Source: Rhodamnia argentea
Taxonomy: Eukaryota; Streptophyta; Magnoliopsida; Myrtales; Myrtaceae
Direction of reading: 5' to 3'
Assembly: GCF_020921035.1 (NCBI RefSeq)
Contig: NC_063156.1
Coordinates: forward strand, 28,444,283 to 28,508,282
DNA length: 64,000 bases
Position 1 is the first letter of the stretch; each line of letters opens with the position of its first letter. Made by a program: the position numbers and the translations under genes. This document shows positions 2,626 to 50,320 of this stretch, in pieces. The notes below the pieces were generated by a model. It was not told where the DNA came from. It worked only from the letters and a program-made list of their open reading frames with translations, and ran no database searches.

Positions 2626-4209
2626 CACGAACTGAACTTTTGTACTGTCCGGCTGTACCTAACAAACTAGAATTTTTGTAACATGCAATTGTGATAGAAA
2701 AGACTGGGAAAGAGTGTTAGGAGCGTCTGGATAACTGTAGCCATGTCTTATTCAAGTTGAGTTGTCTAATGTAACAACGGAATGGTCTTTATGATCAATT
2801 TGTTTACAGCTGGTTTGATGATGAAGTCATCTCGTGCAATAAATTTAGTGACAAAGTCTGATCCTCGATGTAGCGGGTTCTGTGTATCGAAACTGGCGTT
2901 ACCATTGCCGGCTTCCCCATCTAGACATAGATGCTGAACTCGGTTACGTTCTTCTTTCTTCTTTCCCTTTTTTCTGGCGAAAGAACTTCAGTGCTCTGTG
3001 CTAAACCCGATTGTGGAGTATATCTGTGAAAGAGGGAGAGAAGGGGAGAGATTATGGCGAAAGAACTTTAGTGCATCTGCTCCGGACGGTGGTATTCGTG
3101 AAGGAGCTAAAAGTACTGTGGAAGGCGACTCGCCAGCGGCCATTTCTCTTATTTGGAAATCAACTCCGTGTGTCAATTTTAGTGACATTTTGCTTTATCA
3201 GATTGGAAAATGTTAAAGAGTACTTCCACCAAGTCGAATTAGTACATACTTTAAGGGCAATGGAAGGAAATTTGTATGTTAGATTGATTAGCAAATTGGA
3301 TACTTCAAGCATGTGATGTAAATAACACTTTAGCATTAGATATTTATAATCTTTTTGTTGATAGAAGATCAGATAAAATCAAATTTTATTATAAGAGTAA
3401 TGGTGTCAGTTTTATTAGGAGAGTAATCATGTAACTCTTTGTTATCATTTCTTACCAAAAAAAAAATGGTGTTAGTCCAGTAAGTTTGCAGGACCAAACG
3501 AGTTGGCAGTAAGCAAATAAAAGAGAGATTCAGACATTTTTTTTGCATAGTCAACTGACCCTCACGATATCACTCACGACCACTTTGGCAAGGGCAGGCA
3601 TGTTCATGCTTATCACCACTGAGCAAGGGTCAAGTGACCCTCGGGCCGGTTCGAGCCTTCCTTCAGATCTAAACGAGGGCGAGCAAGCCATTACCTATTG
3701 ACGAAAACAGTTGTCTCCTCGCGCACCCCCCCTCTCTCTCTCTCCATGTTTTTGTTTAAATTTTGGCGACATGTCTATACACAACATCAAACGTATGCCC
3801 TGCGGATGATTTTTTTCTTTTTTTTTTAATGAAAAAAAGAAGAACATAAATTTAAGGACCAGATTGATTAAAATTGAATCCAGTGTGCCCCATTGAACAT
3901 TTACATTACACCTGGAGGACCAGTTTTAACATTTTCCCCAACGGACAATGACATGACAGACCTCGAAAATAAAACTTAAAAAAAAAAAAAAAAAAGAAAA
4001 GAAAGGAAAGTAGAAGCAACGCGCTCAATTTGAAATTTTTAACGTGGGACCCACCCAAATACCAAGGAGCCGAATCATGACCACGACGACCGTCGACTAG
4101 CCGTTTGGCAAAAACTCAAACCCACTCTTGACTTCTCCGTCTTCCCCAACCCCTACGCTTCAAAAAAAATTTCTACAACTACAATACTTGCAGAGCTCAA
4201 TCAATATCT
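2626..4209. other. Intergenic region between DAPF and kinesin-5
   Basis: Holds the DAPF 3' untranslated region and then AT-rich DNA. Around 3590-3690 is a GC-rich stretch (CAAGGGTCAAGTGACCCTCG and similar) that resembles the core of the Mutator-like MITE family found further right (25143, 31903, 40457), but no ends could be found. A poly-A run lies near 3975-4000. No open coding sequence is convincing. The last ~100 bases before 4200 are probably kinesin promoter. Confidence 0.5.
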
Positions 4210-4643
4210 CCTCTCTCTCTCTCTCTCTCTCTCGATTCCAATTCCGATCTCCGAGTTCCTAACGCGATTCCATTGTCTAGGCCCCTGAAGATCGGTAAGT
4301 GCAATCGCTCCCGCGTTCCGTTCTTCAATGGAATCTTGGATTTGCTAGCTGGGAGAATTTGATGGAAACTGAACTGTAGAACAACGCAGAATGGGGAAAA
4401 AAACTTTTTTTTTGCGGTGCATTGTTTCCTTTATTTTTTCCGTTTATTGAAAGAGATTTTCATTCTTTGGAGGACCCGCCCAACCCAAGTGAACGTCAAC
4501 TGCTTTACATTGGGAATATACGTGAATTCCGTCTGTTTGTGTCCATCTCCTCCCTGTTTATGATTTGTGGGCGTGGTTGATGGTGTATTGTTCTTTTCCC
4601 TTTTTTCTTTTTGCGCTGTGTAGGTGGGGGAGATAGTGGCGAA
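4200..4643 (+). promoter_or_regulatory. Kinesin-5 5' leader with intron
   Basis: A (CT)n run at about 4208-4233 is followed by a probable untranslated exon ending at 4294 (AAGATCG before GTAAGT). An intron runs 4295-4623, ending TGTGTAG, and the coding exon continues to ATG at 4644. CT tracts near the transcription start and leader introns are common in highly expressed plant genes. The transcription start itself is not resolved. Confidence 0.55.
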
Positions 4644-7600
4644 ATGATGTCGCTTACCCCGGATCAGTTGAGAAAAGTTGGGTTGGGTGTGGTTCCGTCT
4701 CCATCTCCCTTCCTCACGCCTCGGCCGGAGAAGCGGCGGGCGGACTGTAGAGGCGGCGAATGGAACTCGAACCGGCATGAGAAAGATAAAGAGGTCAATG
4801 TGCAGGTTCTGCTGCGGTGCAGGTGGGCATTAGCACTTTGTACTTACTCAAAGTTGTCTCCTTTCACCCATTTGGTTTGGTGAATCCTTGTCGTCGTGGG
4901 TTCATTAGGATTTGCATTCGCATTGTGCTATGTCACTGGACTCTGCTCATCTGTAACATAAGGTAGATAGTCAACGGTATTGATGAGAATATTCTTGGAC
5001 AGAGATATGATTATTGAAATGGAAGGAGTTCTTCACAATTGGTTTTGAATGAACTGGAAATATTTTAGGTGATAACTCTGCAGCTACCCAAAACCCAAGA
5101 AACAACAAAGTGGGATTGTACCATTTGAATTCTTAAATTTGTTTCCAATTACATAATTCCTTATTGCCTCTTTTGGGATGGACATTCTAAGTATAGAGCT
5201 TGTTTTTCTAATTTTATCTGTCAGGCCATTAAACGAAGATGAGCAAAGGTTGAATGTGCCAAAGGTCATCTCATGCAATGAACATAGAAAAGAGGTCACT
5301 GTCATGCAGAATTTAGCCAACAAGCAAATAGATAGGATTTTCACTTTCGACAAGGTATGCTGACATGACTCCAGCTGTGAAGAAAGATTTCTCTCATAAT
5401 TACCAGCTGAACTAGATTTTATCTGGCAAATTTGCAAGGTTTTTGGGCCCAAAGCACAGCAAAGATCAATATATGATCAAGCCGTTGCTCCCATTGTTAA
5501 TGAAGTTCTCGACGGTTTTAACTGCACCATCTTCGCCTATGGGCAAACAGGCACCGGTAAAACCTACACAATGGAGGGCGGGATGAGGAAAAAGGTAAAA
5601 TAGCAAATTGCATAGTTCCATAAATATTTTACATTGGTTGATGCCGTTTTTATGAAACATAGGTTGGTGAACTGCCTGCTGAGGCTGGTGTCATTCCACG
5701 AGCAGTTCGTCAAATTTTTGATACACTAGAAGCACAAAATGCTGACTATAGTATGAAGGTGACTTTCTTAGAACTCTACAATGAAGAGATAACTGATTTA
5801 CTAGCCTCCGAGGACCACTCGCGCTATATGGAAGATAGACAGAAGAAGCCCATATCACTGATGGAGGATGGAAAGGGTTGTGTGGTTGTAAGGGGCCTCG
5901 AGGAAGTAGCAGTATATAGCGCAAATGAAATCTACACTCTGTTAGAACAAGGAGCATCGAAAAGGCGAACGGCTGATACCTTGTTGAACAAGCGTAGCAG
6001 GTAATTATTCTCCTTTGCTGAACTTTTAAGGGTGTCTAACTTAATGGAAACTACAAAGCTAGTCCTTTTCTAACCTTAAGCATTTAGTGGTTACACTTTT
6101 CAATGATATTATCCTTGCTGCAGTCGGTCTCATTCCATCTTTTCCATTACGACCTACATAAAGGAAGCGACCATTGGAGAGGAAGAGATCATAAAATGTG
6201 GAAAGCTTAACCTTGTAGATTTGGCAGGATCAGAAAACATTTCTCGATCAGGAGCAAGGGAGGTAAGATATCTCTGATCTATGCTATCAAAAGCAATTTT
6301 TCCCAATCTCTCTCTGTCTATCCCTGTCTCTGTCTCTCTCTCAAACACACGTACAAACGTGCTGAGCGAGAGCCAAAAACTATGGTTATAAAATCTTAAG
6401 TCCTTGCAAAACCTAGTAATGAGGCAAGCCAGAATTGTTAACATATGTATACCAGCAAATAGTTATATAATGATTTCTGCTGACCTAGAGTGTACTTTGA
6501 AGCTGCAATTATCTGCAGTCAATTTTTTCATACTGACAGATAGAAATAAAAGCCTAAAACTTTTATGTTATCTATCTTTTCACCTTTAGCATTTAGATTT
6601 TTGGAGAAGAATTGATGTGCCAACTGTGTAGATGAATTTAGTTACGTGTATGTGATCTTATGCACATTTGGTTCATTTATAGGCTTTATGATCAGAATAA
6701 GTTTTTTTTGGACATATTAGATGCAAGACCTTTTGCACTAACATGCTTGCTAACTATGTGAGTTGATGCGAGTAAATAGGGAATTGCACAATTGGTGTTG
6801 GAGAAGACTCTATATTTCTCTAATTTCGCATGAAATTTGCAATATCAGTTATTGAGGGCATATAAATTCCAGGGTCGTGCAAAAGAAGCGGGGGAAATAA
6901 ACAAGAGCTTACTAACCTTGGGCCGTGTGATAAATGCACTTGTGGAGCATTCGCCTCATATACCTTACAGGTTATTTCTCAGACGTTATTCACTGAAGTA
7001 TGCTTTGCATTGACCTCTTCATAATTTCTTATAATACATTTTCCTGGTCTGACAATTTATGAGCAGGGACAGTAAGCTGACAAGACTTCTAAGAGATTCT
7101 TTGGGAGGAAAGACCAAAACATGCATTATTGCTACTATTTCTCCTTCTGCTCATTCCTTGGAAGAAACATTAAGCACGCTAGATTATGCTTATCGGGCTA
7201 AAAACATTAAAAATAAACCAGAGGTTTGATCAATCGCTGTTTTAGTGTCTTTGAGTTTCCTCATGCGCTTTCCTAGTGATATTTACATGGAGTAGCTTTG
7301 CAGGCGAACCAGAAACTGTCAAAAGCTGTGTTGCTTAAGGATTTGTACGCAGAAATTGATAGGATGAGAGAAGGTTTGACAACGATGAGCCCACACTGTC
7401 TCGGCTGTTATGTGAACAAATCACATAGTATTTAACATATACATCTCCATACAGATGTCCGAGCTGCAAGGGAAAAGAATGGTGTTTATATTTCCCATGA
7501 AAGGTTTGCCCAAGAAGAGGCTGAGAAGAAGGTAAGTCCAAACAGTTTTCATGGAGTGCTCTGATCTTTTTATAAAACCCATGGCTCCCAGATCAAATTG

Positions 7601-10600
7601 TTTTCTCCTTGGAAATCATTGGATTACATTCATCTGCAGGCAAGGAATGAAAGGATAGAGGAATTGGAAAATGATCTTATCACTTCTGAGAGGGTACGAG
7701 CTAGCTTTTGGGACTTTTCTCTTACTGATGCGATATTTGATCAACTAATTATTTTTTTCCCTTTGGCCAGAAAAGTGAAAAATTTCGCAAGCTCTACCTT
7801 ACAGAGCAGGAACAGAAATTGGACCTAGAAAGTAGTCTTAAGAACTGCAAGGTACAGGTTATGGATTTCATATCATTAATGATTTGTATAAGGGTGCCAA
7901 TATTGCATCTTGCACTAACAAATACTCGATGTGTACAGATTGACCTGGAGAATGGTAATAAGGCATTGCTTGATCTACAAGAGCAACACCGGTTGGCTAT
8001 CTCCACATTGAAAAATAAGGAATTTGTAATCTCAAAGCTGCTAGAATCAGGTAATTCTGTCATGAGAAGTTGACTTAAGCTAGTTATCCCAATTTTGTCT
8101 ATTTGTTTTACTCATACAGGCTTACAATCTTTCTGATGTGCATCCAGAAAGTTCCATAATTGATCGTGCAAAGGAGTTAAGATCAGATTTGCAAGATGCA
8201 TCTCAGGATTTAAGTTTGTTGTTCGGGAAATTAGGTACTGCTTCTTTTTGTGGTTGTAAAGTTGCATACTCTACATTATTAGCTGAAGCAGCGAGGAGAG
8301 GTGGGTCTATATTTTAGAGTTTGAGGTGGCTCTGTCCGAAGAAAATCTATTTTATCAAAAAACAGAGTAATATTTCAAGTTCTGCTTGGTTCACTATTTC
8401 TTTGCTCCACCAAAATACCTATTTCCTGGTTGCTGACTTGAGAATATTCCCTAAAGTAAATTTATGAGTGACACAACAAAGATTACCCTTGAGTATCTAA
8501 TATTATCATCCACTATGCAGACTACAAAAGCAGGATGGAAGCAGAGAACCATAATATTGTCTTGACGTTTGGCTCTCAACTTGATCAACGCTTGAAAAAC
8601 TTGCATAGGACTATCCTGGGCTCAGTTTCTCAACAACAGCAAGAAATAAGATGCATGGAAGAACATGTCTCCTTGTTTCTTGCAAGTAAAAATGATGTGA
8701 GACAACTGTTTACTTTAAATAATTACATGCTTGTCTCACACTAGTTCTAATGAATAGTTCTATTAAACATGCCAGGCAACGGAAAGTCTGCGTTCGAAGG
8801 TTGAAAGGATGATGACGACACATAGTTTAGGACTGTCTGCATTGACTGATTATGCCAATAAAGTACAGATGAAAGCCACCTCTGACCTCGATCAAATAAA
8901 TTGCAAAATATCATCGGAGACGAAGGGCATTCAGGAAGTATGAACTTAAAGTTCGTTCTGTTTTTGAACTTTTGTTTGCTGCTCTCATTAAACCAGATTC
9001 TGTGCTGATTTTGCAGTATATTGTCAAGTTAGTGTTGGAGGCCAAGGAGATCGTTAGAGACATTCATCACGCTCTGACTGAACAGAAAGACATACTGGCA
9101 TTCTCTGCACAGCAACAGGAAGAGGTAACCTATCTTCTTCTTCTCAAGTCCAGGTCTGGTTTTATCTGCTCATTGATTGGTCTATGTGACCCTGTACCTA
9201 TACTCAAAATGTGCTGGATCTTTACTTCTTCGTGATTGAATTAATAGGCATTACAAAGAAGTTTGGTTTCTGCGCACGTTGTGTCCAATGCAACCATGGA
9301 CTTTTTCAATGATGTTCACAATCATGCTTCTGAAATCAAGTCAATCATTGAAGAATGTCATGCTGAAAGGATCTGCCAACTGAATGACTTTGAGAAGAAA
9401 TTTAAGGTCAGATAAGATAATTCCGAGATATCTGGCATTTTATAATTTGATCCTCGTGGAAGCTTATGGATTGTCTTCAAACAGGAAGAGGCGGCAAGAG
9501 AGGAAAGACTGGCTTTGGAGCAAGTTACCGCAATTTTGGCAAATTTAACATCGAAGAAAAATAAAATGGTGGGGCAATTTCTGAGAATGTTGTGCTTCTG
9601 CTTTTAAAGCCACACACTCACAAGTCACATTATGGATAAGAAGGGTCTCAGTAAATTTTGTGGCAATATTTTGACGTGCTTTTGACATCTTTCCTGATCA
9701 TTAGGTCTCAGAGGCATCTAATGGTATACTCGACTTAAATACAAGGGAAGAGCAGATATTGCAACATCAAACTACCAACATGCAGCATATTGCAGCTGAT
9801 GCTAGGAAAGAATTGACTGAGTACATGGTTGAGGCAAAAAACAATTTCTTGCAAGACACATTTTCTACACACGAATCCAGGGCCATATTGGACAGCTGCT
9901 TTGACAAGTGGTATGGTTTCTTTTTTTTTTTTTTGTCAGACAAGTCGTATGGTTTCATTATACAAGAAATAGAGCTCACCATAAGAGCTGGTATCTGTTG
10001 AAGCACACTACAATTTATCCGGTTTCTCTTAGCATTGAACTTATTAAATTAGAAAGAATCTGTTTGCTTTAAAAAACACTTCTTAATTAGCCTAGATGCA
10101 TGTAGTCTTGCCAATACACAAATTGAGATGATGAATAAAGTCTTGCATTGTGGATTACAGATAGTGTGGAGCTAACACATATTTGAAAACTTAATTGTCG
10201 GAACAATGGGCTTCTTATGATATACGAAAATGAATGAGCGGGAAATAGTTGTAAGTTAATTTCCAACCTAATACACATCACCCATCATCCTTTCCTCTTT
10301 TTGTGTAATGCAGTTCAATGGTTGTGGATGATTCGAAGAGACAATGGGAGAATGCTGCATCTGCCATTAATGAGTTCAAGAATGTTAGTATAGACAAGAT
10401 AGCATCCCTAGTGAGGTAAAATCCTCTCTATCATCAACTATTTCTTCACATTTCCTTGTTTTTTCTCTCATAATGCGACTCCCTGATGGCTCAAGCAGGG
10501 AAAATAAAGGCGAACACCAGGATTTATGTGAACAATTTAGATCTGCATCGTCCTCCACGGATAGAGATTTTGCTGCTAGTGTTGATGGCATGGTCACTGC

Positions 10601-11265: not shown

Positions 11266-11619
11266 GGAAGGCGGTTTTAGCAGACTGTGATCCGGCATGC
11301 TTGTCAATTGTCAAAGAGGCAAAACTTGCTGATTGACTGATGAGCAGGAAGACTGGATTGAGTCCTAACAGCAAGTACTAGTCTAGTAGCTATGGAAGGT
11401 TTCTCCTCCTTTCTTTTCGGACGAGTCATTTGTATGTGTTGTAACAACTTGTTCGATGTTGCCGGGGAATGGTTATGGTAACCCATTGTGATCAGCAATG
11501 CACTTTAGCGGCTTTAAACTCCATGACCGCCTTCGAATCAAAGTACATATTCATTGAAAATTCGTATCGGCCACCGTGCATTTAATGTGCAGATAATTAT
11601 TGATGTATGCCTTATTTCG
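11266..11619. other. Kinesin-5 3' untranslated region and spacer
   Basis: Unique-looking DNA directly after the kinesin stop. It probably contains the 3' UTR. No coding potential was recognised; no clear AATAAA signal was pinned down. Confidence 0.4.
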
Positions 11620-11845
11620 AATTTTCCTCTCACTAGTTCAACAAGTCGAGTGCCATATTCCCGATTAAAGATTATCTGAATTCATTGAGAAAGATCAAAT
11701 CGGGTGAAAAAAGAGACCGATACTATCATTCAAATTTTCCTCTCACTAGTTCAACAAGTCGAGTGCCATATTCCCGATTAAAGATTATCCGAATTCATTG
11801 AGAAAGATCAAATCGGGTGAAAAAAGAGACCGATACTATCATTCA
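11620..11845. repeat. Tandem duplication, 2 x 113 bp
   Basis: The segment 11620-11732 is repeated immediately as 11733-11845. The only difference I see is ATCTGAATTC in the first copy against ATCCGAATTC in the second, so the duplication is young. It lies about 355 bp after the kinesin stop codon and does not code for a recognisable protein. Confidence 0.95.
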
Positions 11846-11992
11846 AATTTTTGCCCGTCCATGCCTCCTTCTAAGATTTGTCAAGGAGGACCACAGCAAC
11901 TCCATGGGACCATGGCAAGGACCACTCAAGTCCATGGTCTTCCACATATCTCGGGGGTAGGGGTCAAATTAGATAATGAGTTAACCAGGCCC

Positions 11993-25790: not shown

Positions 25791-26336
25791 TTGTCATAGA
25801 AAAAACTGACATACATGCAATAGAAATCTATATATAATCTATATGTATTATATGTAAATATTTTGACACGGATGACAAAAATTCTTTTGTTTCTTTTTTA
25901 CTTCAGGAGTGGACAATATAAAAAGTCAGGAAATTATGAGACGACAATATTTATTTCTTCGTCAATTCCAGTTGATGCAAATTAGACAGATACACTGCCA
26001 TCCCTAAACGGGTCTTAGAACTCAATAAGTATGGACATGCTGAAAAAGACTATTCTTGTGTCATAAAGTTGTGTTTGGTTGTCCGAATTTCTAGACATGA
26101 TAGAATAATACAATCCATGAATTTGTCATATTCTATCCATTGTTTGGTGAATCACGGTAATAAAATAAAAAAAATTATATCCTATCATGTTCATTATTTC
26201 GTATTTACGACATAGGATGAGATCGGATATCGTATAAGTTGTCCGGTTCAACATTTGATGACATATAAAATTGAATAAAGTCAATATTGAATCCAGGTAA
26301 AACCCTAGTCGCGATAATAGCCTCATCTATGACTGG
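25791..26336. other. Spacer, nothing recognised
   Basis: AT-rich DNA between two transposons. A region near 26050-26300 has repeated CATGATAGAAT/ATCCTATCATG words that suggest a further worn inverted-repeat element, without clear ends. Confidence 0.35.
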
Positions 26337-26344
26337 GATGAGAC

Positions 26345-27448
26345 TAGAGCTGTCAATATGGGTCCACGACCCATTTCTGACCCATATTTTATATACATGG
26401 ATTTTGATGTGGGTTGTTAGTTTTTAGAGGATCCAGTAAAAATGAGTTCAAAAAAGTTAAAGTTAAATTTGACGAGTTAAAAATTGGTCACACATAGAAC
26501 CCATTTTTGACAGATGGGTGTGGCTTGTAGTTTCCATAAGTTGTTAACGAGCCTCAAAGGCTCAACTTGATGAGTTTATATTTTTTATTTTTTAGTTTAA
26601 ATTTTATGTTTTTAAAAGTAAAAGAAAGTAAGAAAAATTATTTTTTGTTGGTCTGAAAAGAAAAAAAAAATTATAAAAATCTTTTATTGGCCGCCTGCCG
26701 CCATCAACGGTCGCCACTGCCCACCGCCGCCCGCCACCTCGTGAATTTCTGTACAGTAGGAAGTTTAAACCGAACCGAAATAGGGGCCGTCTCGAAAATT
26801 CCCTGCTCGGTTCCGGTGCAAATCCATTGGAGCAGGAGTAGCACGTCATGACGATCCAAACAAGGGACTCCAAAACGGACATGGGAATCCTCAACAGGAA
26901 ATTGGGGAGGGTGAAAGTCCCACGCCGGGTGGAGGAGGAGGATGTATCTGTGCTTGTAGAACACAGGAAGCCTCATTATGGTCAGCAAGAGCTCGGCAAA
27001 ACCGATGAACATATTGTTGATCATGGAGAGCAAGAGCGCGCCGACGCACAGAGCGCCATCGTCTTCATTACGGTTGTGCATCCTGGTGCTTATCAACACC
27101 GTGGACACGATGATCGCCACGAGAATGATCTGGATGGTCTTGAAGATGTGGGCGAACGCGTTCTTCCTGATGAACACCGCCGCCGCCGGGAAAAAAAATT
27201 AAAAAATCTGAAAAACATTGCACTAGAGAAGAGCTTAAAATATGTTAAATGAGGTTTTTCTAGAATATTGGTATGTTTTAATAATATGGGTCAAAACAGG
27301 TCGGATCGGGTATGGGTCAGTTGCGGGTTGGACCAGATATGGATCTTTAAATATGGGTCAAAATGGATTAAACAAGTTAATATGGGTTGGACCATATTAG
27401 ACCCGATCCAAACTTGACTCGACCCGACCTATCCATTTGACACATCTA
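26345..27448. mobile_element. hAT-type non-autonomous element carrying a gene piece
   Basis: Left end TAGAGCTGTCAATATGGGTC; right end GACCTATCCATTTGACACATCTA, whose reverse complement TAGATGTGTCAAATGG matches the left end. These are typical plant hAT termini. The flanking 8-mers GATGAGAC (26337-26344) and AATGAGAT (27449-27456) share the core ATGAGA and differ by two transitions, fitting an aged 8-bp TSD. Subterminal zones are rich in GGGTC/GACCC words. The interior holds a decayed ABCG transporter fragment on the minus strand. No transposase was seen. Confidence 0.75.
26755..27177 (-). pseudogene. PDR-type ABCG transporter fragment, frameshifted
   Basis: The minus strand reads RKNAFAHIFKTIQIILVAII, then RNEDDGALCVGALLLSMINN, FAELLLTIMRLPVFYKH and HPAW; after a frame change near 26920 it continues LRIPMSVLESLVWIVM and NGFAPEPSR. 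In order and wording this is the first transmembrane block of the second half-size region of full-size ABCG (pleiotropic drug resistance) transporters. No ATP-binding cassette, no splice sites linking to other exons and no start are present, and the frame is broken, so it is a fragment of about 140 residues. It lies wholly inside the hAT-type element 26345-27448. Capture by the transposon is the simplest reading. It is probably non-functional as protein but could produce antisense or small RNA. Confidence 0.85.
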
Positions 27449-27836
27449 AATGAGATTGATATTCTCCCTGGACGAGATAAAAATTTTCACATATTAGAAA
27501 TGTGAAATGAAAAAAAAAAAAAAAGGAGAGAGAGAGAAAGAGAAGGGTGGCATGCGGCGGAAAGGGAGAGAAAAATGGAGAGGGCCAAGGATAGATAGAG
27601 GAGACAAGTAAGCATTGGCCGCCGTGGGCGATGACCTCCGACACAATGGCACGGTGAAAGGTGGCGTCCTACGGTAGTGATGATTGCATTACGGCCTAAA
27701 TCCTCCCCATGATCGCGACTTACCGTGGCTTGAGATTTTTTTATTGCGCATCTCAAGTTAAATGGTTGTCGACTAAATTCGTGCATACAAAATTACTCAA
27801 TCTAATGAATATGTATGAATTGGCGAAAACGTAGGC

Positions 27837-28046
27837 ATGAATTTGTTGAACCTAATGTATTCGACTATGCATATTGCGAGGGCTCTAGGTTTCCTCCATT
27901 CTGATCGGAGAAAACTGCCCCCATTGAAATCATTTGCTAGTGGGTTCTTCATATTGTCAACACTTTTCCTTTTTATGCTCATGGGAAGCGTCGTCGTTTT
28001 CATTGGAAAGATTCGAGCACACAGCGCACCTTCGTGGTTCAAATAG
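27837..28046 (+). CDS. Unrecognised 69-codon frame with a membrane anchor
   Basis: The frame encodes a basic N-terminal part (RALGFLHSDRRKLPPLKS) and then a hydrophobic stretch of about 20 residues starting at GFFILSTLFLF and ending VVVFIG, followed by KIRAHSAPSWFK and a stop. This is the shape of the N-terminal anchor of a type II Golgi protein such as a glycosyltransferase, but no catalytic part follows. It could be a first exon fragment of a decayed gene, or chance. I do not recognise the family. Confidence 0.3.
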   Translation: MNLLNLMYSTMHIARALGFLHSDRRKLPPLKSFASGFFILSTLFLFMLMGSVVVFIGKIRAHSAPSWFK

Positions 28047-36965: not shown

Positions 36966-37290
36966 TGGCCTGATACCAAAAAAAAAAAAAACCCAAACTT
37001 TAGCATTTCTCCCAATTGTATCCCAAACTTTTTTTTGTCTCATAAAAAACCCCCAACTTTTACTTTTGTTCCAATTCTACATGCCTAATATCCAAAAAAT
37101 CCCAACTTTGGCATATGTCCTAATTATATCCAAAATATTTTTTGTCTAATAAAAAACTCTCAAATTTTACTTTTGTTCGAATTTTATTGGCTAATACTAA
37201 AAAAACCCCAACTTTAGCATTTGTCCAATTATATCCAATTTTTTTTTGTCTTATAAAAGACTCTCAATTTTTACTTTTGTCTCAATTCAA
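36966..37290. repeat. Tandem repeat, three units of ~108 bp
   Basis: Each unit has the order CCTAATACCAAAAAA, CCCAACTTTAGCAT, CAATTATATCC, TTTTTTTGTCT, ATAAAAAACTC, TTTTACTTTTGTTCCAATT. Units start at about 36968, 37083 and 37190 and differ by many substitutions, so the array is old. Confidence 0.85.
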
Positions 37291-41999: not shown

Positions 42000-42597
42000 T
42001 AGGGGTGAGTGGTTTCCGGTCCAATCCGGTTTCCATAAAAAATTGGGAACTGGGACTTCCCACTTTTCGGAACCGCGGACCGAACCGGACCGTCCGTCCG
42101 GTCTGGTTCCCGGGCGGTTCCAAGGGTTTCCGGTCCGCGGTTCCGAAAAGTGGATGCACCCTTTGATAGAAGACACGATTGAGCTCGAGGTCGAAAAAAC
42201 AAAGGTTGGTGTACCGTGAGCTCGACGGAGTCAAGGCCTCTTCAATTGGCAGCTCCGGATAGAACTCGTTCACCAACAACTTGATTGTAGACGATGTTAA
42301 TGAAGTTTGAAGCGAGACAAGTGGTGGGAAGGCTCAAGACATGTATGTATAGCGAGAGAAGTGGAGACTGGATAGTGGAGAGGTAAGAAAAAATGTCTGA
42401 GGCGCTATGCTGAAGTGAAGCAAAGAAATCTTAAAGGACCTAAACCTAAACAACAAGTAAATGTTAGGTTTGTTTTTTTTAAAAAATTTAAAAAAAAGGA
42501 ATAGGTCCGGTCCGGGCGGTCCGATCCTAGGCCCTGGAACCGGAAACCGGACTATTGGTCCCGGTCCGGTCAGGGCGATCTCTTTTGCTCACCCCTA
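42000..42597. mobile_element. hAT-type MITE, same end family as 29101
   Basis: Left end TAGGGGTGAGTGGTTTCCGG; right end TTTTGCTCACCCCTA, reverse complement TAGGGGTGAGC. Flanks ATGGACTG (41992-41999) and ATGGACAG (42598-42605) are an 8-bp TSD with one mismatch. Subterminal zones repeat GGTCCGGTCC and its complement. The centre (about 42160-42460) is not palindromic and could be captured DNA of unknown origin. Confidence 0.88.
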
Positions 42598-46946: not shown

Positions 46947-48962
46947 ATGGCACCACCCAGCATTACCGAAAATGTTCAGAAGGGTGCCACTACTCATCCT
47001 GCACCGCATCTGCCTCTTAACGAAAGGATCCTTTCATCAATGACCCGGAGGTCTGTTGCTGCACACCCTTGGCACGATCTTGAGATAGGTATTGTATATC
47101 TGAGCTTTTCCTTTTCTTTTGAAGTTTTCCCCTCTTCTTGTCGGAGTTCTAATGTCACTCTTTGTCAGGTCCTGGAGCTCCAACTGTTTTCAACTGTGTA
47201 AGTGTACAAACTGTCATTACCGCACTGGTTGTATAGTAGGGCATAAACTGGGATCTCCTTTTTCTAGATGAGAATAAATCAGACCTTGAAACCTTGGACC
47301 TCATGTTGAGGTGGGGAAAAAAAAGGTCCTTCTTAAGGAACCACTGGCTCATTCATTTACATAGCGGAAAATTCAATTTCTGTTATGATGTTGAATCTTC
47401 TTTCTGTGGCAATTTCTTCATTTCACCTTCTTGGATGCTAGATTCCACCACGGCCATCTCTGTAAACATTTGTTACTCTTGAAGAATAATACTGAATTTC
47501 CAGAATGGGAAAAGGACTGACTCTGCATAAACCTGAATAGAAGGAAACAAAAATCCTCAACTGGGCGACTTACTGTAGGACAAATTCTTGCAGGTGATTG
47601 AAATTAGTAAAGGAAGCAAGGTGAAATATGAACTTGACAAGAGGACTGGACTGATCAAGGTAATCTTCGGTTCTTCCAGCCAAGTTTCATTCCGAGAACG
47701 TATAGTTGATCAAAAGTTGTTTAACAGTGACATATATTTTTAGGTTGACCGTGTGCTTTACTCATCAGTTGTGTATCCCCACAACTATGGTTTCATTCCC
47801 CGCACTCTCTGCGAGGACAATGACCCGCTAGATGTCCTGATCATCATGCAGGTTTGTGGTTTGACGTGCTCCTTTTCTTTATATAATGAGAAAAAATTCC
47901 ACTCAATGCCTAGCTTATATTATACTTCAGCAAGGGCAGAATCATCGTAGCAAAACCTCTCATAAGTTAACAAAAAAGCCTATTCTGGTCAATTTGTGCA
48001 AACTAATTTAGTCATTAATGACTGAAACACCGCAGGAGCCTGTTCTTCCTGGATGCTTTCTTCGGGCTAAAGCTATAGGCCTCATGCCTATGATAGATCA
48101 GGTACCCAGTTTGAACAGTCAACAGAAGTATTTATCATTTTCTTCCCCATTCTAGAGGAATTTCTGATTATGATTTACAGGGTGAGAAAGATGACAAGAT
48201 AATTGCTGTATGCGCGGACGATCCTGAGTACCGACACTATAATGACATTAAGGATCTCCCTCCTCATCGTTTGGCTGAAATCCGTCGCTTCTTTGAAGAT
48301 TGTATCCTTGATACTGCCTTTAGTTAAAAGTATTCTACATATTGGAACCCGTACTATTCTCTTAATGAAGCCAGGTTTGTAATCCTTAATATGCTAAACA
48401 GACAAGAAAAATGAGAATAAGGAAGTTGCAGTGAATGATTTTCTTCCTGCCTCTACTGCCTTTGAAGTAATCCAGCACTCCATGTAAGTTATTCTCTAAG
48501 TTACACTTGCACCTGCAATAAGCTATTGACTTAAATGTCTTTTTCCTCCTTATGGATCTTGCAGCTAAATCTGAGTTATCTCCATTATAGAATAGTTAAT
48601 GTCTTTGTCAGAAGGAGTTGAAGTATCTATGAGTCTATTTCCTGTCGAATGCTTCCAAGATATTTTTGGGCATCTAATCACCATATGAATTAAGCATGTT
48701 TAAGTCAGTAGTATGTTTACAAATGTAAGTTGGTGCTTCATTTCAAATTAATCCTTTACGGGGGCTATCTAAATCGAAGTTTTTCAGTGGTACTTTTGTC
48801 CGAAATTGTACTGCAGGGACTTTTTATCTTTCAGTTCTTTTTTTTTTTCCCTAACGTCTTGAAACAATGGGTATTGCTTGTGCAAATCACTTATCATACG
48901 TCCAACTTTTGTCGTGAAGGAACCTCTATGCCGACTACATTGTGGAGAGCTTGAGGCGGTAG
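46947..48962 (+). CDS. PPA: Soluble inorganic pyrophosphatase (family I)
   Basis: Hydrolyses pyrophosphate to two phosphates in the cytosol, pulling biosynthetic reactions forward; needs magnesium. Exons 46947-47088, 47169-47197, 47594-47659, 47744-47851, 48036-48101, 48181-48301, 48402-48483 and 48920-48962 join in frame to 218 aa, the usual plant length. Recognised blocks: [60 protein letters not shown], the active-site signature DNDPLDV (residues 104-110), [39 protein letters not shown] and the C-terminus [13 protein letters not shown]. No transit peptide is present, supporting a cytosolic form. The acceptor of the short last exon (GTCGTGAAG before GAACCTC) is weak but preserves the family C-terminus. 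A perfect 303-bp tandem duplication begins 12 bp after the stop. Confidence 0.97.
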
Positions 48963-48974
48963 CCGACCCCAGTT

Positions 48975-49580
48975 AACATGGTGGTGCGGGTCTCCATGCC
49001 CCGGTCCTCTTTGTGTAGATGACGACGATAGTACAAATCTTTCATATTCTTTATAAGCAAATTGTATTTGTGTTTGGTGCAAGAAATGGCATCATAATGT
49101 CGTGTTTGTATTTACAGCTCATGGATGATGTTTTGTATTTCAACAGAGGAGATTAAAAACTTGGGGCATGTGTTTCCACCATTTTTTTTTCCCTTCCTAT
49201 TCTGTTCTCCTGATGCTCTGACCTGTGACCATTTATCTTTATTTGGATCATAGCAAGAAGGGTATTTTGTTCACTTCAACATGGTGGTGCGGGTCTCCAT
49301 GCCCCGGTCCTCTTTGTGTAGATGACGACGATAGTACAAATCTTTCATATTCTTTATAAGCAAATTGTATTTGTGTTTGGTGCAAGAAATGGCATCATAA
49401 TGTCGTGTTTGTATTTACAGCTCATGGATGATGTTTTGTATTTCAACAGAGGAGATTAAAAACTTGGGGCATGTGTTTCCACCATTTTTTTTTCCCTTCC
49501 TATTCTGTTCTCCTGATGCTCTGACCTGTGACCATTTATCTTTATTTGGATCATAGCAAGAAGGGTATTTTGTTCACTTC
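48975..49580 (+). repeat. Perfect tandem duplication, 2 x 303 bp
   Basis: 48975-49277 is repeated as 49278-49580; both copies begin AACATGGTGGTGCGGGTCTC and I found no difference between them, including the T9 run. A further AACATGG follows at 49581, the break-point microhomology. The unit covers most of the pyrophosphatase 3' UTR and any polyadenylation signals, so the transcript may have two equivalent ends. Confidence 0.96.
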
Positions 49581-50320
49581 AACATGGAAGGAAATGCAGG
49601 AGTTTGAATTTGTATCTACGGTCTGTGATTCAGCATCCCTTACATGAAGGAGGAGGCTTACTTTGCTGTTTATAGAGAAGAAATGCAGATAGATCCTTCT
49701 TTTTCCTTGGATGCTTTAGAACGTGGAATCCAAAAGTTTAAGCTAATAAGTGGACGCAAACTGTATATGTATGTAAAAGAGCATATGAATCGTGTAAACA
49801 AGCAATGTAAGATAAGATTTTTACACCTCCACTCACGTACAGACTAAATTTGGAATGACATGCGAAAGTTAACGAGGGGGGTTACACATGAATAAAGTGT
49901 GCAGAACTCAGATTTGATAGTTTTCTCAACTAAATGTCGTGCCCCTCATGCTATTCGTAAGTTTATCATAAACATGATTTTGACTAGATTCATTTCGTCA
50001 TGAACTAAGTAATCTAAATTACCCATCTCGTCTCATGAAAAGCTTAGGTGGGTAAACACCGAACGAGATCGCTCACTCTATAATCTTATATGCTGCTCGC
50101 GTTTCACCTGATTCGTTGGGGGAAGAACCCCTTTTCCGCTTTGGTATGCATGGGCTTAGGGCTTTTTACCTTTTGAGACTTGTTGGACCTTTATTTCTCG
50201 TTGTTCCTTTTATTTTTGGGTCAAAGAGGCAGTCTTGTCTACTTCTTTCTACAATTTTTTTTTTTTTTTGGTCGAATACTTCGTTCTATAATTGACTAGC
50301 TTATTGGGCATTTGTGGCAC
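49581..50320. other. Spacer with a 67-codon open frame
   Basis: The frame at 49644-49847 reads MKEEAYFAVYREEMQIDPSF and ends near YVKEHMNRVNKQC; it looks protein-like (charged, no low complexity) but has no recognised family and no splice context. It could be an exon relic. The rest, including 49860-50320, shows nothing recognisable apart from T-rich tracts. Confidence 0.35.

Follow-up and report, generated by a model that had tools for sequence, protein, structure and literature searches.

A hAT element of Rhodamnia argentea with a probably captured piece of a PDR/ABCG transporter gene

How does a piece of a transporter gene come to lie between the ends of a DNA transposon? The question is raised by a stretch of 64 kb (the window, C7:28444283-28508282 in a genome of 346.7 Mb and 74 contigs), which coding pieces for a kinesin, a histone H2A, and a pyrophosphatase place in the nuclear genome. 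An earlier note on this DNA had described a small hAT-type element at positions 26345-27448 that encloses part of an ABCG gene. Our analysis makes it very probable that this is a Pack-hAT: an ancestral element would have taken up a copy of some 430 bp from the genomic sequence of a PDR/ABCG gene on contig C2, or of a close relative of that gene, then moved at least once more, and then decayed. The parts of this reading that the sequences themselves establish are the family ends, the matching gene, the intron content, the shared cargo with identical borders, and the decay.

The element and its family

The two ends of the element match in 10 of 12 inverted positions (Table 1). Taken alone, these ends and the flanking repeat are weak, being near chance level: ends of the TAG...CTA type form two pairs in the window, and at least one pair was found in 17 of 60 Markov-1 random sequences of equal length. 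Once looser ends (CA/TA) are allowed, the window holds 12 pairs of ends and flanks. The ends are nevertheless significant because they recur genome-wide together with the subterminal DNA. The left third and the right fifth of the element gave at least 52 genome matches (best 40 of 388 candidates scored), and the core of the right end was found in at least 40 places (42 matches, best 40 of 233 candidates scored). Both ends could be paired in 29 members among the loci examined, with lengths from 326 to 4238 bp. Short terminal inverted repeats of the hAT kind are thus present in the window copy and recur in the family, as the earlier note had supposed, and its test set beforehand, that the ends should form a genome-wide repeat, came out in favour.

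Table 1. Positions of features in the element of the window and in the stretch of the C2 gene (L035, own coordinates)
Stretch	Feature	Positions	Strand	Basis or remark
Window	left target-site duplication copy GATGAGAC, aged, 8-bp	26337..26344	.	6/8 match with 27449-27456
Window	left terminal inverted repeat TAGAGCTGTCAA	26345..26356	+	identical end in family
Window	left AT-rich end, GACCC/GGGTC subterminal motifs	26345..26688	+	common to family
Window	GCC-rich tract, left border of cargo	26689..26738	+	60-bp density maximum of element
Window	captured intron start of PDR/ABCG gene	26737..26802	-	alignment to L035
Window	captured 3' part of PDR/ABCG first-transmembrane-block exon, broken frame	26803..27176	-	Pfam, NCBIfam, L035 alignment
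Window	short GCC-rich run, right border of cargo	27177..27190	+	three-way alignment; longer in C4 sister
Window	right end with GGGTC motifs	27191..27448	+	common to family
Window	right terminal inverted repeat TTGACACATCTA	27437..27448	+	present in family
Window	right target-site duplication copy AATGAGAT, aged, 8-bp	27449..27456	.	6/8 vs left copy
L035	ABC2_membrane ORFs	4469-5155, 5312-5515, 5519-5845, 8457-8744		Pfam, 8 pieces
L035	ABC_tran ORFs	6561-6974, 6978-7319		Pfam
L035	ABC2_membrane_7 ORF	4018-4443		Pfam

The flanking 8-mers match at 7-8 of 8 positions in 11 of the 29 paired members and at six or more in 16, counts that lean upward, as the choice of end positions itself took the flanking match into account and had no shuffled control. 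Duplications are perfect around L011, L034, L038, and L052, and poor around some members (e.g., 0/8 for L015). An 8-bp target-site duplication is thus found at the level of the family, and the aged repeat proposed for the window copy holds with 6/8; the sister copy on C4 has 4/8. The right ends of L040 and L033 differed between two pairing runs. Fourteen locus entries were unpaired: seven distinct places (L013, L014, L016, L021, L024, L028, L046), refetches of these (L054, L055, L056, L058, L060), and L023 and L025, which could be paired in longer fetches (L057, L059). L017 and L061, which are one place, were paired without acceptable ends.

The family does not have the traits of MITEs, which are short, high-copy, homogeneous, and cargo-free: its members span the lengths given above and differ in cargo. 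Those that are cargo-free would fit the definition better. The two longest members, L057 (4031 bp) and L059 (4238 bp), have the family ends, and no transposase was recognised in them (one ORF from each gave no Pfam match); they are candidates for larger captures or nested insertions. Among the loci examined there was no autonomous partner. The cargo of the window element had also been said to run antisense to part of the element, a statement that lacks a reference, as no gene or transcript of the element was found.

No sister copy was detected within the window at E 0.01 or better, searches for the element in plasmids gave no match, and neither did Rfam and tRNA scans of the window. The pattern of the terminal inverted repeats occurs in four viral contigs, presumably by chance: the stretches inspected (L001, L002) look like phage genes, and their BLAST against the element gave a 19-base match at the pattern, weak AT-rich matches, and nothing more. 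The window also includes a second hAT-like element, of another family, at 42000-42597 (ends TAGGGGTGAGTG / TGCTCACCCCTA, flanks ATGGACTG/ATGGACAG matching 7/8). Its subterminal DNA is rich in GGTCCGG, the unplaced filler measures roughly 330 bp, and two frames gave no Pfam match. Directly downstream of an exon with the pyrophosphatase domain (48115-48324), a 303-bp unit is present twice in tandem (48975-49587, 100% matches), either a recent duplication or an assembly artefact. Further tandem repeats lie at 36985-37288 and 11616-11851, with units of 107 and 113 bp.

The cargo and its closest gene

The cargo covers 440 bp (window positions 26737-27176, element positions 393-832). Its 157-aa ORF matches the Pfam domain ABC2_membrane (PF01061) at 5.8e-7, the 88 aa before the frameshift do so at 1.3e-7, and the PDR family of NCBIfam (TIGR00956) is matched at 2.3e-13 with 48.7 bits, far under the cut-off of this full-length model. 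At these fragment scores, both profiles identify a PDR-type ABC2 membrane domain. The 59 aa of the second frame have no match in Pfam, NCBIfam, or PDB, and they were assigned to the ABCG piece through the DNA alignment with the gene on C2. PDB sequence searches gave no match, and no relatives of the piece were confirmed in viral contigs or prokaryote genomes.

A genome search with positions 26690-27200 returned five places: the window itself, the C2 gene (85% identity), a sister copy on C4 (82%), and two places on C8 (71%). Weak matches are incompletely covered by this list: a 66% match in L043 is not on it and was found by local BLAST. We rejected as donors the paralogous ABCG genes of C8 and the neighbouring ABCG gene of C2 (L043), given their identities of 71% and 66%. 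By its sequence, the PDR/ABCG gene at C2:26.455-26.464 Mb is the donor or the closest relative found; a closer donor may have been lost or missed, as the identity is just 85%. A match for the parental gene sought by the earlier note thus lies on another contig, and the internal DNA of the element corresponds to a host gene located elsewhere, as in Pack-TYPE elements.

The stretch with this gene (L035) has PDR/ABCG domains in successive ORFs (Table 1), with no Pfam match in the piece 664-1191, and the PDR model matches its key exon at 2e-41; the gene is presumably complete and expressed. The ORF of this exon stops at position 129 of PF01061 and the next ORF begins at position 130, with AGCAG^GTAATT at the break, which places an intron there. 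In the alignment, the cargo comprises the final 364 bp of the transmembrane exon and continues for 65 bp into the following intron, with the border in window coordinates (26802/26803) placed by hand. The fragment had been described as a frameshifted ABCG piece of about 420 bp. Its identity and its frameshift stand, whereas its extent had to be revised to the 440 bp given above, and 26737-26802 is intron, not coding sequence. These intron bases imply a capture from genomic DNA. When the 9.9-kb stretch of the C2 gene was compared by BLAST with window positions 25801-28000, the cargo was the sole match (others had E 0.07 or worse). The homology therefore ends inside the element, and the extension beyond 26345-27448 that would have spoken against a capture is absent. 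The same 9.9 kb contained no element ends detectable by BLAST.

Capture, movement, and decay

The sister copy on C4 (L037) matches the element by BLAST over element positions 1-844 and 878-1063, and in the three-way alignment its cargo has both borders of the window cargo. The composite has thus been amplified together with its cargo, which is a further trait of Pack-TYPE elements. GCC-rich sequence lies on both sides of the cargo in the two copies. Under the scenario that we favour, an ancestral element would have copied the end of the exon and the start of the intron from the C2 gene, or from a close relative that was lost or not found, and the copied piece would have entered the GCC-rich middle of the element. 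A template switch within the GCC tract, while DNA was being repaired or replicated, could account for this step, with transposition after it. The composite would then have moved at least once more, probably by means of a hAT transposase acting in trans, so that one copy now lies on C7, in the window, and another on C4. The two have since decayed.

A possible, though less probable, course of events is that two neighbouring hAT elements flanked the gene piece and that their outer ends were mobilised jointly with the DNA between them. This is the published model for Pack-CACTA elements, which the consulted sections of two articles extend to all superfamilies, with hAT examples (PMC8903248, PMC13317346), and the host DNA of the window element does lie between a left and a right part. 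However, no element remnant was found in the 9.9 kb around the donor piece, and GCC-rich sequence flanks the cargo in both copies, with a similar tract in several members without recognised cargo, which points to insertion into a pre-existing middle. The lack of an element end near the donor and the GCC-rich runs flanking the cargo favour copying into one element over the fusion of two.

It is very improbable that the cargo is functional, either by silencing its parent gene through small RNAs or by coding for a peptide. The 85% identity to the C2 gene over the 440 bp and the two open frames that cross the cargo (134 and 157 aa) agree with a function, but both copies have frameshifting indels, a lost splice donor, and an even pattern across codon positions, and a scan for inverted repeats gave none with an arm in the cargo. 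The silencing of the C2 gene by the captured piece is putative. Relative to this gene, the exon part of the window copy is longer at three sites, by 3, 1, and 6 bp, and the frame is shifted at one of them; the C4 cargo has its own indels, including a loss of 22 bp. The splice donor GT of the gene became GG in the window copy and GC in the C4 copy. The changes found in a single copy are spread evenly over codon positions 1/2/3 (6/7/6 plus 2 in the intron for the window, 6/4/7 plus 5 in the intron for C4) and hence give no sign of coding constraint. The lost splice donor, the broken frame, and the even spread of the unique changes show that the cargo is decaying.

The total differences from the gene do lean to third positions (9/11/22 in the window copy and 9/7/23 in the C4 copy), a bias that we ascribe to the gene lineage and to the stem shared by the two copies. 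Both copies differ from the C2 gene at 28 common bases. When polarised with the C8 paralogue, 12 of these are assigned to the ancestor of the elements (2/2/7 by codon position and 1 in the intron) and 4 to the lineage of the gene (3 third positions and 1 in the intron); 7 are ambiguous and 5 are intron positions without an outgroup base. The distances across the cargo are 12.4% between window and gene, 12.8% between C4 and gene, and 11.1% between window and C4. The last two sequences differ more at the two ends of the element (15.6% and 19.0%) than in the cargo (11-12%), possibly as a result of gene conversion or of uneven mutation.

The last two explanations have a virtually nil probability. 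The exon part is free of introns, as a piece of spliced cDNA taken up by retrocapture would be, but the cargo continues past the exon into 65 bp of intron, which rejects an origin in spliced mRNA. A pseudogene fragment of the common kind, bounded by chance ends and with no transposon involved, would explain why the inverted ends and the flanking repeat alone are near chance level; it is refuted by a hAT family in which the same ends and subterminal DNA enclose different contents.

A GCC-rich tract and other captured genes

The sister copies include members without recognised cargo and members with other cargo, the two outcomes looked for since the earlier note. L015 has a piece of DUF247 (Pfam 6.3e-22), a plant protein family, and L040 a piece of SOUL (1.7e-13). 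The probable cargo of L034 is an AN1 zinc finger (1.7e-4, 22.1 bits for a Pfam cut-off of 27.9); L027 shares this middle at the DNA level, and two of its frames had no Pfam match. In all, shared middles were observed in three pairs: L005/L037 (ABCG), L027/L034 (AN1), and L029/L047 (a cargo without name). Pfam searches gave no match for pieces from L019 (twice), L029, and L038, nor for nine of ten further member pieces, the tenth having E 0.09; the piece from L030 reached E 0.14 at best. No cargo was recognised in L008, L010, L011, L012, L018, and L039, whose middles are short or AT-rich. A query with the DUF247 piece matched six places at C2:17.57-17.62 Mb, with 81-84% identity, which are candidate donors. 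The DUF247-bearing stretch itself is present in three copies within less than 75 kb (C2:23206460, 23251020, 23277414), through either local hopping or segmental duplication; one of them is L015, and the other two lie within about 50 kb of it and match it at 93%.

We defined a strong tract as a 60-bp stretch with at least 12 GCC-type triplets and found one in 21 of the 28 members of at least 400 bp. In 20 of these 21 members the + strand of the element is the C-rich one, and in 19 the tract begins at a distance of 170-420 bp from the left end. The tract of the window element scores 20 and starts at element position 336. When the window is cut into 1066 separate 60-bp bins, 5 of them are at or above the threshold; the two figures are not strictly alike, because the scores of the elements are sliding maxima. 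The tract is present without cargo, though not always: among the six members without recognised cargo, L018 and L039 score 17 and 23, and L010, L008, L011, and L012 score 11, 5, 4, and 7. Scores of 17, 24, and 19 were obtained for L020, L033, and L045, whose middles are short and GC-rich and in which no cargo was identified. For ABCG and DUF247, the two cargos with a candidate donor, the tract adjoins the cargo. In L015, the homology to the donor sets in near element position 382 (placed by hand), where a tract at 325-385 ends, and the C2 gene at the left border of the ABCG cargo reads CGCCAC, which is tract-like. This suggests template switching at the tract. We therefore raise, as a speculative and rather unlikely proposal, that the tract is a capture hot spot, in which a one-stranded repeat that readily forms hairpins and breaks would lead repair to switch template repeatedly into genes. 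Against it, just L018 and L039 have a strong tract among the six cargo-free members, and the tract is possibly merely the start of the variable middle. The literature searched, with subscription journals mostly outside, gave no report of such a hot spot.

Published cases of gene capture by hAT elements are less scarce than the earlier note had implied, with accounts from grapevine (2008), maize (2011), and rice and maize (2022), and the window element is an additional case. The following comparisons concern the portions of these articles that were consulted. The Hatvine-6 elements of grapevine agree with our family in that their ends are shared, whereas their middles vary and match genes, exons and introns included; their members share transposase sequence, which was not found here, and the plant and the genes are others (PMC2528002). 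The Pack-hATs of maize and rice are likewise non-autonomous, with captured coding DNA and acquisition of sequence within families, but they were sought with the ends of Bg and Ac and later with abundant terminal inverted repeats, whereas the end here is TAGAGCTGTCAA; the terms GC-rich, microhomology, and intron are absent from the main text of that article (PMC8903248). Among 903 Ds elements of maize, gene fragments were described in 2 Ds2 and 9 Ds-l4, in a text that argues for capture from DNA on account of the retained introns and calls capture rare (PMC3260210). These fragments resemble ours in their introns and DNA-level origin and differ in having Ac/Ds ends. For the Pack-TIRs of animals, which include one frog Pack-hAT, capture by template switching with microhomology has been proposed, and multicopy forms were amplified by transposition, as we suppose here; the hosts differ, and no fixed GCC tract is described in the sections concerned (PMC8277862). 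Gene capture in plants is also covered in a 2026 review, as far as the part consulted goes (PMC13317346). No paper was found on the family of the window element or on gene capture by hATs of Eucalyptus, in searches that left subscription journals mostly outside.

The plant hAT family described here has cargo from several genes, and for two of these cargos a matching gene or a cluster of matches was located in the same genome. The GCC tract offers a testable idea on where and how cut-and-paste transposons acquire genes, a mechanism that is still debated. If the idea is true, this hAT family would be a serial gene-catcher.
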